From assembly GCA_024336345.1 (NCBI GenBank), contig JANFOG010000003.1, forward strand, positions 3,664,501-3,728,500: DNA of 64,000 nucleotides, in the 5' to 3' direction. Position 1 is the first letter of the stretch. Each line of letters starts with the position of its first letter. A program made the position numbers and the translations under genes. Positions 3,562 through 12,173 of this stretch are shown one piece after another. Origin of the DNA: Mariannaea sp. PMI_226 (Eukaryota > Ascomycota > Sordariomycetes > Hypocreales > Nectriaceae). The notes below the pieces were generated by a model, which saw nothing but the letters and a program-made list of their open reading frames with translations, made no database searches and was not told the origin of the DNA.

Positions 3562-6500
3562 ATGCTGAATGCCCTCAAGAAACTCGTGTGCTTTCGAAGA
3601 ATGGCCAACAACCGCAGATCAAGGCCTGCAGCCTCGCCGGACAAAATATTCCGTGCAGAAATTAACAAATCATTGGTAGAGAGCCGTTTTGAGAATCCCC
3701 GGAAGTTCCTGCCAGAGGACGCAATCCGCCAGTTGACGACTGAGAAAAAAATCCAACCATTGTTACCCAACGCATCCCAGGAACTGATTCACTTTATTCG
3801 AAAAAAGGCGAAGCGGGTCTTCTTGACTGCTGCATTTGATCATCCCGCGGATGTTAACTTGAATGAGTTTGCAGAGCTCCTACAACGTTTCAACTTCACT
3901 GATAGCAACCTACCAATTGATGACATATCATATAATGGGAGTTGCGAGTGGTTCGAGGAGCGTGGTAGGGATTGCTGTGAACACGACCCCGAATTGGAGG
4001 TCTTCCATGACTGGGAAGAAAGCTCTGTGACGCGCTTCTTCGAGAATCAGTTCCAATTCAACTCGCCAGTTTTCAAAAAGACAGGTTCTGCGGAACAGAT
4101 CTCCGAAAACTCTATCATGCCCTTTACTTGGGTGAGCCCGATAACAAAGGATGGCCACTTTAGCTCGGTTCGAGAAGCCAAGCTTCGAACAGACCACCAG
4201 GACCATACAAAGGTAAGAGGATAGAACGAAACGTGTAGAAGCCATCTCCCGAATGTTTGTTTCTTACAAGCCAAAGTGCGATAACAAAATTATCCCCGTT
4301 GCCATCAAACAGCTCAAGTGTCTGGAGGGGCTGGATCTCAAGGCCGCCTTTGAACTCGAAGCAAAGGCTCTAAACAACATTGGTAGCCTACATCACCGAC
4401 ACATAATTAGTCCCATTTCAGCCTTCCAGCGGGGTGATAACTATTATATTCTCTTAGAATTTGCTGATGGCGGCACCCTGCGAGAGAAATGGAGAAAGGA
4501 TGGAGATATTTACAAGAGCCTTAGCAGAGAGCATGTCAAATGCTTCATCAGGCAGATGCTTGGCTTGGTTCAAGCTATAAACCACTTGCACAAGCCAGCG
4601 TCTCGGAAAGGGACGGAACTACAGTCCGAGTCACGAGAAACCAGCGAGCAACCCAATACCACCGGCATCTCCTTCACTATTACGCAGCCCGATGATCTTG
4701 ATGCGCTGATTACGCCTGAAGGAGACAGCCTGGCAAGCCATTGGCGCCATGGTGATTTAAAACCCGATAATATTCTTGTCTTCGAAGACACCACCTGGCT
4801 GGGGACATTGAAGATTGCAGATCTGGGGTTGGCAAAGCAACATGAGAATGCTACATCTGATAGGAACGCTCCTACCAACACAACACACTCCACGCTGCAC
4901 TACGAGGCTCCTGAGGTGATTACCAGGCCTAAGCAACCAAGATCACGACGCTATGATATCTGGTCGATGGGCTGCATCATCTTTGAGTCTCTGATCTGGC
5001 TTTTATATGGCCATGATCGACTCAGCACGTTCCTGAACAAACCCAAAGCCAACAAATCTATTGAAACCGTCTACTTCACTGTCGCTGACAGAATCGATGG
5101 GAAATGGGCCAAGATCAGTTCGCTTGTTAACAACCTTATCGATGAGATGATCACCAAGGACCCGGAATGCAAGCCTAAAGCAACTGCAATCGGAGATCTT
5201 CTCAGCTTGGTCCGAGACAGGCTATTGGTCATTGCCCTGCCAGGTTCGCCCATTGAGCCTGGGTTGCAGCTTCGTGCCGACGCTAGCGAAGTGGAAAGGG
5301 AGATACGTCGAATTTGGACCAAGGCGCAACGTAAGGACGGGTACTTGTTTACTGGCATGAGTCGAGATGATGCCGCAATACCAGAAACTCTCGAGATCTC
5401 GAAGAATCAACCAACAAAGAGACGAGACTCTGGAATTGCATTGAGGAGCCACGAATCCCAAGATAACGTAAGTGAGACCCACAGTATTCTAGATCTTTTG
5501 ACAGTGCTGACGAGTACATGTTCATTATAGGATGTGTGTTAGCTCTTAATCAATCCATAAGGTGCCTCTTAAAAGAGTGATAACTGACTACTGATTGGGG
5601 AGCTGCAGACAGTAAGTGGCAATGCATCCCCCGGACGGCGGAGAGAATCTAATACCGATCACAGTATGTAAGTTGATATAGGGGTGAAGGTGATGCTGCT
5701 ATGTATGGGAAATAGCTAAAAGACATGTCTTGTAATATTCAAGAATGTAAGTAATGCCTATAAGCCAAACGGGGACGTATGTTTACTGACGTCGTGACAT
5801 AGCACGTAAGCAGTACTTTTCAATGCTGAAGGAGCTCTGGACTACAGCTGACTCGGGGACGATGCTTTCTTGATATTAGGTGGTAGGTCTCGCAGAGTTC
5901 GATTATTTGTGAGACTTGAATATGTTGTAACTAATAATAATCCCTTTTCTGAATAGCCGGCAAGTATTTATTTCACTCCATTATTCAATGCTAGTGAGCT
6001 GAGTGTCCCTAGTTTAGTGATGACTGGGAGTTTCTAAACGACAATACCTTTGCCTTGCAATTATATCGCACCAACTGCCTCGACCAATTATCCCGAAAGC
6101 AAAAGAATATATCGACCAAATGCCTTCGATGCCGGAACTTAGACTTTTGGATACCGAATTTCTCTGTCAGATACACTGTTGCGGAACTAAAGATGAGCTC
6201 GATGACATGTGAATTTTGCCATCTTTTACTTACTACCTGTATTACCGAGCCAGACCAGCAAACGAATTCTTCCACTGGCGACCAGGAAGAAGTCAATTTC
6301 TACCGAATTGGATCGCATATTATGATAAACAATAGGGCCACACCCGGTTTGTCGATTTGTACAACCAGAGGTATGTGTCACCAAACAAAGAAAAATGCAT
6401 AACATTTGATTGCAATGTAGACTGATGGTTGTTTTTTTTAGTTGATGAAATTGCAAATGACAGTCTCCTTTCTGAAATTCAGCTTGGTTTTCCGTTACTT

Positions 6501-8087
6501 CCCGAGATCAAGAGTCCAGAATACTACAATGTTCTGCGCCAATGGCTACAAGACTGCGACACCCACCCTGGATGCCGACTGGATAACATAATGACTGAAT
6601 CTCGGACAGTTCCCACGAGGCTGATCGATGTAGAGACAACAAATTCGGCAAAAGTGTATCTCACAGAAACAAAACGTTGGGAGGAGAGTCAGAAAAGTGA
6701 TCTAAGATATATTGCACTTTCTCACCCATGGGGCAACCCACAGCACCACCGTCATTTCTCTACTACCAGAAAGAATATTACCCATCGCTTAGGGGATGGC
6801 ATTCTGTTTGACGATCTTCCAGATACGTTTAAAGATGCGGTCGCGGTTACAAGACAGCTTGGGGTGCGATATCTCTGGATCGATTCACTCTGTATCATTC
6901 AGGGGGACGATGGAGACTTCAAGTATGAAGCCGAGTTTATGGAATCCGTCTTCAGCTTTGCATACTGCGTGATTGCAGCAAGCCGAGCTACGGGGACTTC
7001 AGACGGCTTTCTCAAGCAACGGCCAGACCGGAAGTTTGTTCAGTTTCCGATGCCATCGGGTGGTGGCGGTGACTTATATTTCTGCGAAGCTATCGATGAT
7101 TTTCAAGGTGACGTGATAGATGGAGCATTGAACAAACGAGGATGGGTTTTGCAGGAGAGGGCACTCGCTCGACGAACGATTTATTTTACTGATAAGCAGA
7201 CTTACTGGGAGTGCGGCGACGGCATCCGCTGCGAAACGCTCACCAAAATGCAAAAGTAAGTCCTTGAAACTTCATTATGCAGCTCCCATGTCTCCATATG
7301 CTCCGCTCCATACTACGAACTCATTGCAAGCTGACGCGGAGATAGCAACAAGGCCGCGTTTCTCGGTGACCCAGCCTTCCCCAAAGTGGCGATTAAGTCG
7401 AGCAAAGGCGGCCGAATCCGTCTTTACGAATCGCTCTACCGACAGTACTCTAGTCTCGAATTCACAAAGGCCTCTGACAGGCCAATAGCCATTGCCGGCT
7501 TGGAGCAGAGGCTCATTCGCGCCTTCGGTGAGCACGGCGGATTCGGTATCTTCGACCGTTATTTTGGTAGGAGCCTCCTATGGCACAGAGATGGCGATGC
7601 TCCCATGAAGGCTATAGAGTTTGCAACGCAGCAGTATCGTGTGCCGACATGGTCTTGGATGGCTTACCAAGGCAGGATCACGTTCATGGACGTGAAGTTT
7701 GACACCGTGCAATGGGAAGAGACCCAGATTCGCTCGCCGTGGATCAACCATGACTCATCAAGCTCACGTTGGCACACAGGATACACAGACTCGAACACTT
7801 ACCTGAGAGGCAGAGCCAGAGGACTAAACTTGGCCCTGGCGTCTAAGCATATAATATGCGATAAGGGTAACCCGCCGCCCCAAGGACGAGAAATCAAGTG
7901 CATCATCGTTGGGAAACAGAGGGCAGAGGTTGAGCAGAATGTCGAGGTCCAGGTGCACTATGTTCTGGTCGTGGCAAAATCACTAGATAGCAAGCATGAC
8001 GTGACTTATGAGAGAGTCGGGATTGGGGCTTTGCTGGGTAGCTGGATTGACCTGGACGGGAACGGATTGGCAGTGCGGATTCGCTGA
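3562..8087 (+). CDS. Protein kinase - HET domain fusion protein joined by tandem 3-nt microexons
   Basis: My model has 12 exons: 3562-4212, 4271-5467, seven 3-nt exons (5531-5533, 5609-5611, 5665-5667, 5744-5746, 5803-5805, 5880-5882, 5957-5959), 6013-6370, 6442-7255 and 7346-8087. It encodes about 1,260 aa. Residues 1-200 match the layout of the N-terminus of the kinase at 921-2411. The kinase core has VAIK (K230), HGDLKPDN (D379), IADLG (D401) and YEAPEV. Ladder residues 617-623 follow. Then comes a Cys-rich segment (CLRCRNLDF, CEFCHLL) typical of the start of HET proteins, and the HET domain from about 832 (YIALSHPWG, WIDSLCIIQ, GWVLQER). The last exon continues the usual HET C-terminal region (DRPIAIAGLEQRL). 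HET-domain proteins trigger growth arrest or cell death in fungal incompatibility. Fusion to a kinase suggests phosphorylation-linked control of that output, which is inference. Less likely alternatives are two genes, with the kinase ending at 5540-5542 after one intron, or a single long intron 5468-6012 that skips the ladder. No start codon in the HET frame lies upstream of its Cys-rich region, which argues against two genes. Confidence 0.72.
5468..6012 (+). other. Microexon ladder: eight introns separated by seven 3-nt exons
   Basis: Introns by position and length: 5468-5530 (63), 5534-5608 (75), 5612-5664 (53), 5668-5743 (76), 5747-5802 (56), 5806-5879 (74), 5883-5956 (74) and 5960-6012 (53). 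Donors in order are GTAAGT, GTGTGT, GTAAGT, GTAAGT, GTAAGT, GTAAGC, GTAGGT and GCAAGT. All acceptors are AG. CTGAC, CTAAT or CTAAA-like branch sites are visible in most. Each exon is one complete codon in phase 0: GAT, ACA, TAT, AAT, CAC, GTG, CCG. The kinase exon ends in phase 0, and the frame is open again from 6013 into the HET exon. Retaining the introns soon gives stops or a frameshift. The introns do not look alike by eye, so this is not an obvious recent tandem duplication. Confidence 0.65.
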
Positions 8088-8961
8088 GTTGAGGGGGTTT
8101 GAACTAGGACTGATGAGTGAATTTCCTTCTGTCATGGGCGTTTTCCAGTTTCAATTTCTGAATCACGAGTCCCGGAAGAGTTGCAGACAGTATAGGACAG
8201 CATAGGACAGAAATGGGTACTGCGTAGTTGGCTAGATCGCGAGTTCAAGCAGACGGGGGATCTGTTTCTTGATATTTACATCATTACATCCTTTACAGCT
8301 CTTAATCTATCCCCTACGTACAGTACTAGGTGAGATGCCCAAATCTTGTAGTCAAAGACTAACCCGGAGTGCCTTGACCACTTGCAGCACTGATTTGCCC
8401 TAGACCGATAAGCGAGGTACTAGGCTCGGACCGCTTCATCGACGATTCTAAACTAGCCCGGGAGCCTTTTTAATAGGCTACATATAGGATACGACAAAGA
8501 TCAGATTTGCAAACCATTCCGCAATATCAGCACCTTCGAACGCTCTGGAAATCCAAAAGCGGATAGATCTTTAGACTGATGGGTGATGTTTTCACCAATG
8601 CCGGGCCAAGGGTTCGGCATCTCGTTCAATCAACATCTCTCGATGTCCTGGACTCTTCATTTTCCGGCCAGGACGGAACTCCCATTGGCTATTGAAGTAA
8701 ATGGCTGAAGTGTGCCTCGGCTGGGAGTTAACCAAGTCGGGCATCATTGCATCCAGATGCCCCTGTAAAGCTGAGGTCAGTGTCGCAGCTGACCGAGAAG
8801 AATGCCTCCCGGGGCTGACACTTCACCGCCCTTCCCATCTTCTATTCCTACCAGAACCAACAAGGCTTCAGAACACTCTCAGAGATATTCAAAGACATAC
8901 AATATCGGGAACTGCCATGCGTGCTCGTCTTTTTGAGTTTTTCAGTTACGAGGATTAAGCC
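8088..8961. other. Intergenic region between the kinase-HET gene and the NLR gene
   Basis: No convincing gene. It should hold the kinase-HET terminator and the NLR promoter. The motif ACAGTATAGGACAG lies at 8187-8200 and recurs in part near 21.6 kb and 29.6 kb. An open frame at 8701-8958 ends just before the NLR start but has no recognisable domain. Confidence 0.5.
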
Positions 8962-11900
8962 ATGGTAACCTTCCGCGATCTTGTATCACGAAAACGATCG
9001 CCCGCTCCTGTTAGCGAGCGGGAACCGGATTGCGAACCTGCACTCCTCGACTCTTCACAATCCATCTTAGACCCACCCGAACTATCTTCAACACCCAGTT
9101 TTCCAGATGGCATTGAGGTCTTGCACGACTGCTCCGATGCTATTGTCGATATCTGCTTTGTCCATGGACTGTCAGGGAATCGCGTCGGCACTTGGACCGC
9201 GCGGGGACAGACGGCGCCGTGGCCGCAGACCCTTCTGCCCGACAAAATCAAGGGAGCCCGCATCCTTACGTATGGCTACAACGCGTACGTAGTATCGAAA
9301 TCCGGAGTGAATCGATTGATGGACCACGCCACGAACCTCATCACAGATTTGACATTTGACAGGGCAAGTTGCAATGCGTCATCTCGCCCTCTCATCTTTG
9401 TCGCCCACAGTCTAGGTGGGCTCGTCTGCAAGGCTGCCATTCTACGCTCGCGAAACAACCCAGAGCGTCCTCGTCAGGATATTTTTACAAGCCTCAAAGG
9501 CGTCATATTCATGGGTACTCCTCATGGGGGCTCGTGGATCGCTGACTGGGCCAAGATGCCCGCCCATGTTCTCGGGTTGTTCAGGTCAATCAACAAAACG
9601 CTTTTGCAAATTTTGGAAACTGATAATCAGTTTCTTGAGTCTATTCAGGCTGAATTCTTAGCATTAGTACGAGGACAACGTGAGGCGGGTAGGCAACTCG
9701 AAATCCGATGCTTCTATGAGGAACTGCCTCTGCCCAAAATTGATCGAGTTGTCGTGTCTAAGAAATCGGCTACATTCGATGGTTACGACCCAATCTCCAT
9801 CCATGCAAACCACAAGGATATGGTCAAATTCTATTCTGCCGGAGAGAATGGGTTTAAGAGGCTTGTCGGAGTGCTACTACCCATGGAGTTAGAAATTAGG
9901 GAGATGCGCAAGTCGCTTTCAGAGCGAAACGAACCCGCTACAGAAGTCACAGAGGATGAGATATCAACTACCAGTTAGTCCAATCAATGTGCTGAAATTT
10001 TTGCTGAATCATGGCTAATAATGTGCCAGACCGTAATACACACTATCTTCCATTTCCAAGGAATAAAAATTTTGTTGGACGTGAGGACATCATCAACCAC
10101 CTTCAGCAGCTTCTCTTCGCCAATGAGGATCACCAACGGGTCGCCCTTGTCGGATTGGGCGGGATGGGTAAAACCCAAGTCGCTCTGCGAATATCACACC
10201 TAATCAAGAGCAATGCTCTCGAACAGAAAAATTATTCAGTCCTCTGGATTCCTGCACTGAGTATGGCGAGTTTTGAGCAAGGCTGCATTGACATTCTACA
10301 CGAATTCGGTATTAAATGTACTGGTGATCAAGGTTCCCAAAAAGTCCATGATAGATATCAAAATCCTAAGAAAAAGCTTCGAGAACTTCTCAGCTCGGAT
10401 ATGGCCGGGAAATGGTTTCTCATTGTCGATAACGCTGACGATATGAATGTTCTGTATGGAACACAGCAACAATCGGGTGGGATTGCCAATTTCTTCCCAG
10501 ATAGTGACAATGGGAGGATTTTATTCACAACAAGATCTCAGGAAGTAGCCGTCAGTGTTGCACAAGATAACGTCATTGAACTGCCTGAGATGGCTTTAAA
10601 AGAGGCAAAGGGCTTCTTACAAAAGTCTTTGATCAAAAAGGATCAAGTTCAAGAAGATGATCTTGTCGATGAACTCTTGCAGAAGCTCACTTGTCTACCC
10701 CTAGCTATTGCCCAGGCATCAGCATATATCAACAAGAATAAGACATCTATCAGGGAATATCTTCGAATTTTTCAGAATACAAACCAGGATATGGTGGAAT
10801 TATTAAGCTGCGGCTTTCACGACGGAAGCTATTACCAAAGAACCCAAGGTGCAGTCGCTACTACATGGGTTGTGTCTTTCAACCAGATTTGTGATATAGA
10901 TCAGGACGCCGCAAAACTGCTGTATTTTATAGCTTTCATTGAACCAAAAGCTATACCTCGGACACTGTTACCTGGATTGGGGTCCGAACAAAGAATGACA
11001 AGTGCCATTGGCACACTCTGTGGGTATAGTTTCCTAAGCCGACGAGAAGACAGCGAGACATACGATATGCATAGTCTGGTGCATTTGGGTACACTGCTAT
11101 GGATCACAAGTCAAGGTCTTGGGCGACGAGAGAGACAGGCAGCTGTCACATGTCTCTTAAACGCGTTTCCGATTGTCAAATGGGAGCACCGTCATATTTG
11201 GCGAGAATATCTCCCACATGCCCTGAAACTCCTTCGAGAAGATGTTGATGATACTGAAATGACTTGCCAACTGGAACACATGGTTGGGCAGTGTTTACTT
11301 TTCGATGGTCGGGGGAAAGAGGCCATCAAACTCCTTGAGCATGCGGTTGCAATAAGAGAGAAGACATTAGGCGAAGGGGACCCAAAACGACTGGAACTAC
11401 AAAATGAACTTGGATTCGCATATTTGTTCAACGAGCAAGTGGAGGAGGCAATTGAGCTGCTAAAACATGTGGTTGTTATACATAAGAAAATATTGCCCGA
11501 GGACGATCCTTCTCGACTGCCAGCACTACACGGACTTGCTGACGCATACCTAGCCAAGGGAAACAACAAGGAGGCCGTGGAGTTGCTGGATTTTATGGTG
11601 AACTCCTTCACGAACTTTTTCAAGCACAACCAAGATAAGCTAATAGCACTAATATCTACTTTTGCAACTTTTTCTCAAAGGACTGGACAAGTGAAGGAGG
11701 TACTTGAGCTGATGGAACATGCAGATGCAAGTATTCTGAAAGAAGTGGGTGAGGACCATCCGAATCGACTTAATTTTCGGCAGCAGCTCGCTCAGCTGTA
11801 TCTAGTTGATGGGCAAGTTGAGAAGGCAATCAAATTGCTACAAAATCTGGTTACAATACAGAAAGCAGCATATGGGGAAAATCACCCTTTTCTGCTGATA

Positions 11901-12173
11901 TCTCAGCAAAATCTTGCTCAAGCATACCGACTCAACAAACAAGGGAAGGAGGCCGTTGAGCTGTTGGAGCATGTGGTTGTGGGACTTGAGAAGAAATTTC
12001 CGGAGGGTAATTCGGTCCGACTGAAGTCAAAGATTCAACTCGGAGAAGCATACTTGGCCAACGAACAGTTCATGGAAGCGATGGAGCAACTAGACCGTAT
12101 ACTTGCAGTAGAACTGAAAACACCAGGTGAGGCGATATCAAAGTTCAAGCATATGGAACAGCTGGACAGTTAG
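8962..12173 (+). CDS. NLR-like protein: alpha/beta hydrolase - NB-ARC - TPR
   Basis: Two exons, 8962-9973 and 10030-12173, with an intron at 9974-10029 (GTTAGT donor, GCCAG acceptor, CTGAATC/CTAATA branch region). They encode 1,051 aa. Residues about 55-320 are a DUF676/PGAP1-like hydrolase: VHGLSGN (68-74), nucleophile elbow AHSLGG (S150), MGTPHGG, and a candidate catalytic His in SIHANHKD (about 280-283). NB-ARC follows from about 345: FVGRED, P-loop GLGGMGKT (379-386), WFLIVDNADD (Walker B), ILFTTRS, CLPLAIAQ (GLPL-like) and YDMHSLVH (MHD-like). The rest is a run of about six 42-residue TPRs with the AYL..G...EAIELL pattern. This is a classic fungal NOD-like receptor layout: the TPRs would sense, NB-ARC would switch and oligomerise, and the hydrolase would act as effector on lipid or ester substrates. 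The exact ligand and substrate are unknown. Lying next to the kinase-HET gene supports an immunity/incompatibility island. The C-terminal end may be frameshifted. Confidence 0.9.

Follow-up and report, generated by a model that had tools for sequence, protein, structure and literature searches.

The window, a 64,000-nt stretch of the Mariannaea sp. PMI_226 genome, contains a plus-strand gene in which a protein kinase domain is followed by a HET domain. The kinase-HET fusion is real, and we read it as one gene. Between its two halves, at 5468-6012, eight introns alternate with seven exons of 3 nt each, all in phase 0. A previous sequence-only reading had proposed this ladder, and every coordinate of it checked. 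We consider it fairly likely (probability about 0.6) that the linker codons are split by eight ordinary short introns and that the gene yields mostly one all-inclusive mRNA. Codon-sized microexons have already been reported. The ladder itself is real and extreme in sequence, and its splicing and function are predicted from that sequence.

Gene structure and splice signals

Exon 1 (3562-4212), delimited by its open reading frame and splice sites, encodes the N-terminal region and had a sub-threshold Pfam match only. Exon 2 (4271-5467) carries the protein kinase domain PF00069 (E 3.9e-31; 108.8 bits, cut-off 31.7). Downstream of the ladder, an exon starting with FSDDWEF (6013-6370) lies ahead of the exon with the HET domain PF06985 (6442-7255; E 5.9e-27, above the cut-off), and the last coding exon ends on the stop codon (7346-8087). 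With all eight ladder introns and the three ordinary introns removed, the gene has a frame of 1260 aa, with the HET domain C-terminal and in the same frame as the kinase. The continuous frame from kinase to HET proposed earlier was thus recovered. Pfam found kinase and HET domains only in this protein, and the NACHT-ANK architecture was absent from it.

In the ladder, intron 1 (5468-5530, 63 nt, GTAAGT..TAG) is followed by microexon 1, GAT (Asp, 5531-5533), and intron 2 (5534-5608, 75 nt, GTGTGT..CAG) by microexon 2, ACA (Thr, 5609-5611). Intron 3 (5612-5664, 53 nt, GTAAGT..CAG) precedes microexon 3, TAT (Tyr, 5665-5667), intron 4 (5668-5743, 76 nt, GTAAGT..AAG) precedes microexon 4, AAT (Asn, 5744-5746), and intron 5 (5747-5802, 56 nt, GTAAGT..TAG) precedes microexon 5, CAC (His, 5803-5805). 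After intron 6 (5806-5879, 74 nt, GTAAGC..TAG) comes microexon 6, GTG (Val, 5880-5882), and after intron 7 (5883-5956, 74 nt, GTAGGT..TAG) microexon 7, CCG (Pro, 5957-5959). Intron 8 (5960-6012, 53 nt, GCAAGT..TAG) is of the GC-AG type. Read in order, the microexons spell DTYNHVP.

The intron sizes, 53-76 nt, are fungal-type. The donors were GTAAGT (four introns), GTGTGT, GTAAGC, GTAGGT and GCAAGT, and the acceptors TAG (five), CAG (two) and AAG (one). A CTRAY branch-like site was present 15-31 nt from the 3' end in six of the eight introns, with CTAAA and CTGAG in its place in introns 4 and 8. Over all eight introns, this agrees with the earlier description of GTAAG-like, GTAGGT or GCAAGT donors save for one GTGTGT, of AG at every acceptor, and of a branch site in most introns. 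The kinase open reading frame ends on a stop inside intron 1, at 5530. Introns 1 and 2 have lengths divisible by three, yet have in-frame stops, and the other six shift the frame if retained, so that any retained intron gives a stop or a frameshift, as had been claimed. The frame alone is no proof of the ladder, because it likewise survives the excision of all 545 nt as a single intron.

Rarity of the ladder in the genome

Two donor filters, neither requiring a branch site, were each applied to 5,000 dinucleotide shuffles of the 545 nt; the longest chain was 4, seen once per filter. Elsewhere in the window, chains did not exceed 3 on either strand, for exon sizes of 0-12 nt and four filter settings. 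Outside the ladder, a sample of the window and 57 non-overlapping loci of the same genome (261,344 nt) contained 1,916 strict donors, and 11 of them had a step over a 3-nt exon to another strict donor. For the whole genome (42.2 Mb, 25 contigs), the expected number of eight-intron chains was 6.4e-11, assuming independent steps. A chance origin of the ladder is excluded.

Further ladders were searched for in 69 sources, namely the window and 68 loci (L001-L068), together 300,802 nt with overlaps. The loci comprised a part of the HET loci (8 + 12), 15 kinase loci, 30 of 46 NACHT matches and three single loci. No other ladder was found in the 69 sources, and only the five containing this place showed one. 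Outside it, the longest chain had 2 introns for exons of exactly 3 nt and 3 for exons of 1-9 nt, both with strict donors and a branch-like site. Under looser settings, L025 gave one chain of 3 with 1-nt exons and L029 one with 5-nt exons. The 545 nt had no match in the genome except themselves, and no orthologous DNA of the ladder was found among viral contigs. Since the exon at 6013-6370 had no other protein-level match in the genome, no paralogue with a comparable junction was found. Rfam, at gathering cut-offs, detected no known RNA element over 5300-6200.

Homologues, linker and neighbouring genes

Both domains were present in all 120 homologues listed (the best 120 of 363). The search was limited to proteins of 0.55-1.75 times the query length, and separate kinase and HET genes are therefore under-represented among them. 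The closest of the matches listed was a Thelonectria olida protein (55% identity). Linker length, measured in 98 homologues, varied from 3 to 101 residues, and the linker was poorly conserved. In a weak structure model of homologue P0005 (23 rows; mean pLDDT 68.9, pTM 0.47), it formed a coil, with pLDDT below 50 at 536-542, followed by a short strand.

In 19 of the 120 homologue models listed, under 70% of the 60 residues past the junction could be aligned, so that the ladder, if spliced as drawn, would be a warning for gene annotation. Six Fusarium models (P0041, P0042, P0045, P0047, P0057, P0061) were in strong disagreement over the kinase-HET junction and frequently lacked the exon after it. 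Their disagreement suggests that gene finders failed to resolve introns there too, though it may have other causes.

Short motifs resembling the microexon-encoded peptide, D-[ST]-Y-x-H or D-Y-[TS]-L-P-P, occurred in some homologues just before the Trp of ..DDWEF. Examples are P0107 (DSYSHDFDDTW), P0073 (KDTYTHAFRDAW), P0248 (VDSYNHHIKNIW), P0007 (DSYPHAMLDIHW) and P0066 (TDYSHPPMDGIW); the closest homologue listed, P0001, has NYSHKFDDTW. The motif Y.[HL], whose Tyr corresponds to microexon 3 and whose last position corresponds to microexon 5, was counted with its Tyr 7 to 10 residues before the Trp. It was present in 23 of 97 homologues, compared with 2.1 expected after shuffling; this count and the position profile below used 97 of the 120 homologues, the linker Trp not being alignable in the rest. 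The motif expressions were picked after this first set had been seen, and only a second set counts as replication. It consisted of 27 of 51 new homologues, again those with an alignable linker Trp, and had the motif in 7 (0.46 expected). Among the 124 homologues tested, Y.[HL] was missing in 94, and D[ST]Y.H was found in only 4 (0.034 expected).

Window similarity was scored on 99 representatives, drawn from the 124 of 171 homologues whose linker Trp could be aligned. By the mean of the ten best windows, 3 of 10,000 random heptapeptides and 101 of 5,040 permutations matched DTYNHVP or did better. By the single best window, 81 of 10,000 and 332 of 5,040 were as good. The mean over all representatives was not significant (1,507 of 10,000 random heptapeptides and 686 of 5,040 permutations as good). 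SHESQDN, the residues present when all microexons are skipped, was unremarkable on the top-ten score, being equalled or beaten by 3,340 of 10,000 random heptapeptides. Among the 128 possible subsets of microexons, full inclusion ranked 11th when scored on the top ten and 58th on the mean.

Two other scores gave weaker results. In the position profile, full inclusion scored 4.86 and skipping of all microexons -2.05, with full inclusion 40th of the 128 subsets; 13.9% of random heptapeptides did as well, and so did 39.6% of permutations. With an HMM of homologue tails, the corresponding scores were 30.4 and 27.3 bits, full inclusion ranked 33rd of 128, and 142 of 4,000 random heptapeptides and 83 of 1,000 permutations were as good. 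The Val codon (GTG) was the worst fit to homologue linkers. DTYNHVP partly resembles the corresponding stretch of a minority of homologues. By this likeness, the seven codons are probably translated, and their translation in the order DTYNHVP has moderate support.

In homologues P0263, P0264, P0277, P0279 and P0280, from other fungi, the kinase module was joined to PF01048 or PF01734 (patatin-like) domains. We take PF01048 to be PNP_UDP. The association of one kinase module with varied effectors recalls the effector swapping of NLRs, and the ladder accordingly lies at a domain-swap boundary.

A kinase paralogue on the minus strand, at 921-2441, was the best in-genome match (42% identity over 201 residues), and its frame terminates at the point that corresponds to the start of the kinase-HET family's linker. 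On the other side, an NLR-like pair of plus-strand frames (8959-9978 and 10008-12173, together 8959-12173) adjoins the gene. Its NACHT match (E 2.1e-4) was below the family cut-off; we read the first frame as hydrolase-like and the second as NB/TPR-like. Just upstream of the window lies a Mad1-like gene, 80% identical to a Fusarium protein (85% for the top match among the 120 listed). According to one study, HET domains are TIR-like, and their overexpression suffices to induce cell death (PMC12881547). The kinase-HET gene resembles a component of a cell-death defence system.

Splicing, origin and comparison with known microexons

In the reading that we prefer, the linker D-T-Y-N-H-V-P would stand just before the HET half, its codons parted by eight short fungal introns. 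Each intron would be recognised across itself, by intron definition, and the introns would be removed serially, one by one. Serial removal is proposed because a 3-nt exon is too small for two splicing complexes at once, and sites only three bases apart make simultaneous recognition of neighbours implausible. The product would be mostly one mRNA with all seven codons, and full inclusion would rebuild the linker between the kinase and a TIR-like cell-death domain. Skipping a single microexon needs an intron of 130-151 nt, about twice the length of the ladder's own, so that constitutive inclusion by intron definition would be the simpler expectation. Sequential splicing by intron definition seems to us the best model; it follows the proposal made for the 1-nt exon of Arabidopsis APC11 (PMC4674806) and agrees with the 1-nt exon of Fusarium CYP621A (PMC12940212). 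From all this we infer the actual splicing, the order of removal, the dominance of full inclusion and a role in regulated cell death.

Other ways of parsing the region were compared by a beam search that allowed introns of 42-400 nt and internal exons of at most 150 nt, retained 60 partial parses for each donor, and scored them with rough rather than measured splice-site frequencies. The ladder came out on top of the 264 in-frame parses found, with 133.5 bits. Its introns scored 11.6-22.3 bits each, compared with 7.8, 17.9 and 20.8 for the other three introns of the gene, and its splice sites look used. The runner-up, with two longer exons, reached 132.6 bits; owing to this near-tie of rough scores, the choices between acceptors 5716 and 5744 and between donors 5883 and 5909 are not decided by sequence alone. 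Sites combined differently, for example with acceptor 5716 or donor 5909, would give two exons of about 30 nt and fewer microexons. We consider such internal exons improbable: they give up the regular 3-nt spacing, which is itself improbable, and microexons 1-3 were common to all 12 best parses printed. A single 545-nt intron, in which the ladder would consist of decoy or relic splice sites, likewise keeps the frame, and is very improbable. Eight good donor-acceptor pairs would hardly persist unused, and the residues left after skipping everything fit the homologues no better than chance. Scored outside the beam search, this intron received 5.7, lowered mostly by its length, a value that is not like for like with 133.5, the sum over eight introns. 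Least credible among the gene models are two separate genes, kinase and HET, or a chance run of sites. The kinase paralogue at 921-2441, without a nearby HET match among the 46 listed, speaks for separate genes; the two domains shared by all 120 homologues listed, albeit in a length-limited search, and the chance expectation of 6e-11 speak against.

Given one gene and this ladder, the transcript could still be processed in other ways. Skipping of subsets of microexons would produce up to 128 in-frame linker variants, which could tune the link between kinase and HET, as the sequence-only reading suggested with its tunable hinge, or diversify recognition. Each of the seven microexons is symmetric, being 3 nt long and in phase 0, and the junction is a swap point where the kinase module is also found with PNPLA and PNP_UDP effectors. 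Alternative splicing is also reported for the 3-bp, codon-sized microexons of Tuber NLR genes (PMC10197012, PMC4986451, PMC3689799). Each skip, however, requires the longer intron described above, and linker length varies widely with no evident constraint; we regard such skipping as unlikely. Somewhat more open, though tentative, is a linker that repeated intron gain diced into single codons, and that is rebuilt serially and skippable codon by codon. At the resolution of single codons, splicing would then act as a rheostat on the link from kinase to death effector, in a gene other than the NLR genes for which 3-nt exons are reported. The sequence-only reading had also raised a record of nested or recursive, stwintron-like splicing, which the adjacency of the introns and the stwintrons described in ascomycetes (PMC5639578 and relatives) would favour. 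It found no support and is highly improbable, because taking out an intron never leaves a usable donor, branch or acceptor across the joint. The best donor formed at a junction had 2.0 bits, and even that required the upstream intron to be still in place; neither a branch nor an acceptor was recreated across the junctions. Zero-length recursive exons (AG directly before GT) were absent, as three bases lie between.

Regarding the origin of the ladder introns, all 28 pairs were compared, with 300 shuffles each. The lowest local p was 0.007 (introns 6 and 8), followed by 0.01 (5 and 6) and 0.033 (2 and 6), all uncorrected, and the dissimilarity noted in the earlier reading stands. Repeats in 5400-6100 were limited to an 11-nt palindrome and one 11-nt direct pair, which consists of splice consensus. 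We rejected a tandem duplication of intron-codon units, as no intron similarity remained past the few low p-values. An introner or other repeated origin was rejected as well, the introns being unlike each other and the 545 nt matching only themselves in the genome. If the motif lies in a single exon of homologues, introns would have been gained between successive codons. Two Xylaria models (P0022, P0023) contain additional residues, V-S first, where the ladder has intron 8. These look like translated intron, which suggests that the position of intron 8 is old.

If spliced as drawn, seven 3-base exons in a row would be a natural test of exon smallness and crowding, and a clean system for studying intron definition and the order of removal. 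They might also exemplify the gain of introns between neighbouring codons, and would extend codon-sized microexons to a second class of genes for fungal cell death.

Among the titles and abstract beginnings listed in searches of the open-access literature, none mentioned microexons in a kinase-HET gene. The codon-sized microexons of Tuber nank genes were reportedly first described by Iotti et al. 2012. The sequence-only reading knew of no comparable run, a claim that has to give way to these 3-bp microexons in the NACHT-ANK (nank) genes of Tuber melanosporum, as reported (PMC10197012, PMC4986451, PMC3689799). Both cases have several 3-nt exons in a gene of the fungal nonself-recognition type, and in the ladder these are consecutive in sequence. 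In contrast to the NACHT-ANK receptors, for which alternative splicing is reported, the gene described here is a kinase-HET gene of a hypocrealean fungus, with seven predicted exons at the domain boundary.

The lipS genes of Dactylellina haptotyla share 3-nt exons in an intron-rich ascomycete gene, but have two of them, consecutive or not being unstated, compared with seven in the ladder (PMC5639578). Fusarium CYP621A has a 1-nt exon supported by RNA-seq (PMC12940212), and for the 1-nt exon of Arabidopsis APC11 a model of intron definition with sequential removal was proposed (PMC4674806). Like the ladder, both place an ultra-small exon amid short introns, but it is a single exon and not a run of seven (PMC12940212, PMC4674806). 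Trichoderma Xlr2 also has a microexon in a filamentous ascomycete, and a functional one; unlike the ladder, it is one regulated microexon in a transcription factor (PMC11121469). Stwintrons resemble the ladder as complex adjacent introns of ascomycetes (PMC5639578 and relatives), whereas their internal intron splits a splice element, which no ladder intron does. The micro-exon genes of Schistosoma have very short exons in series as well, but these exons span 3-81 bp, their introns are up to 5 kb long, and they encode secreted proteins (PMC10526429).
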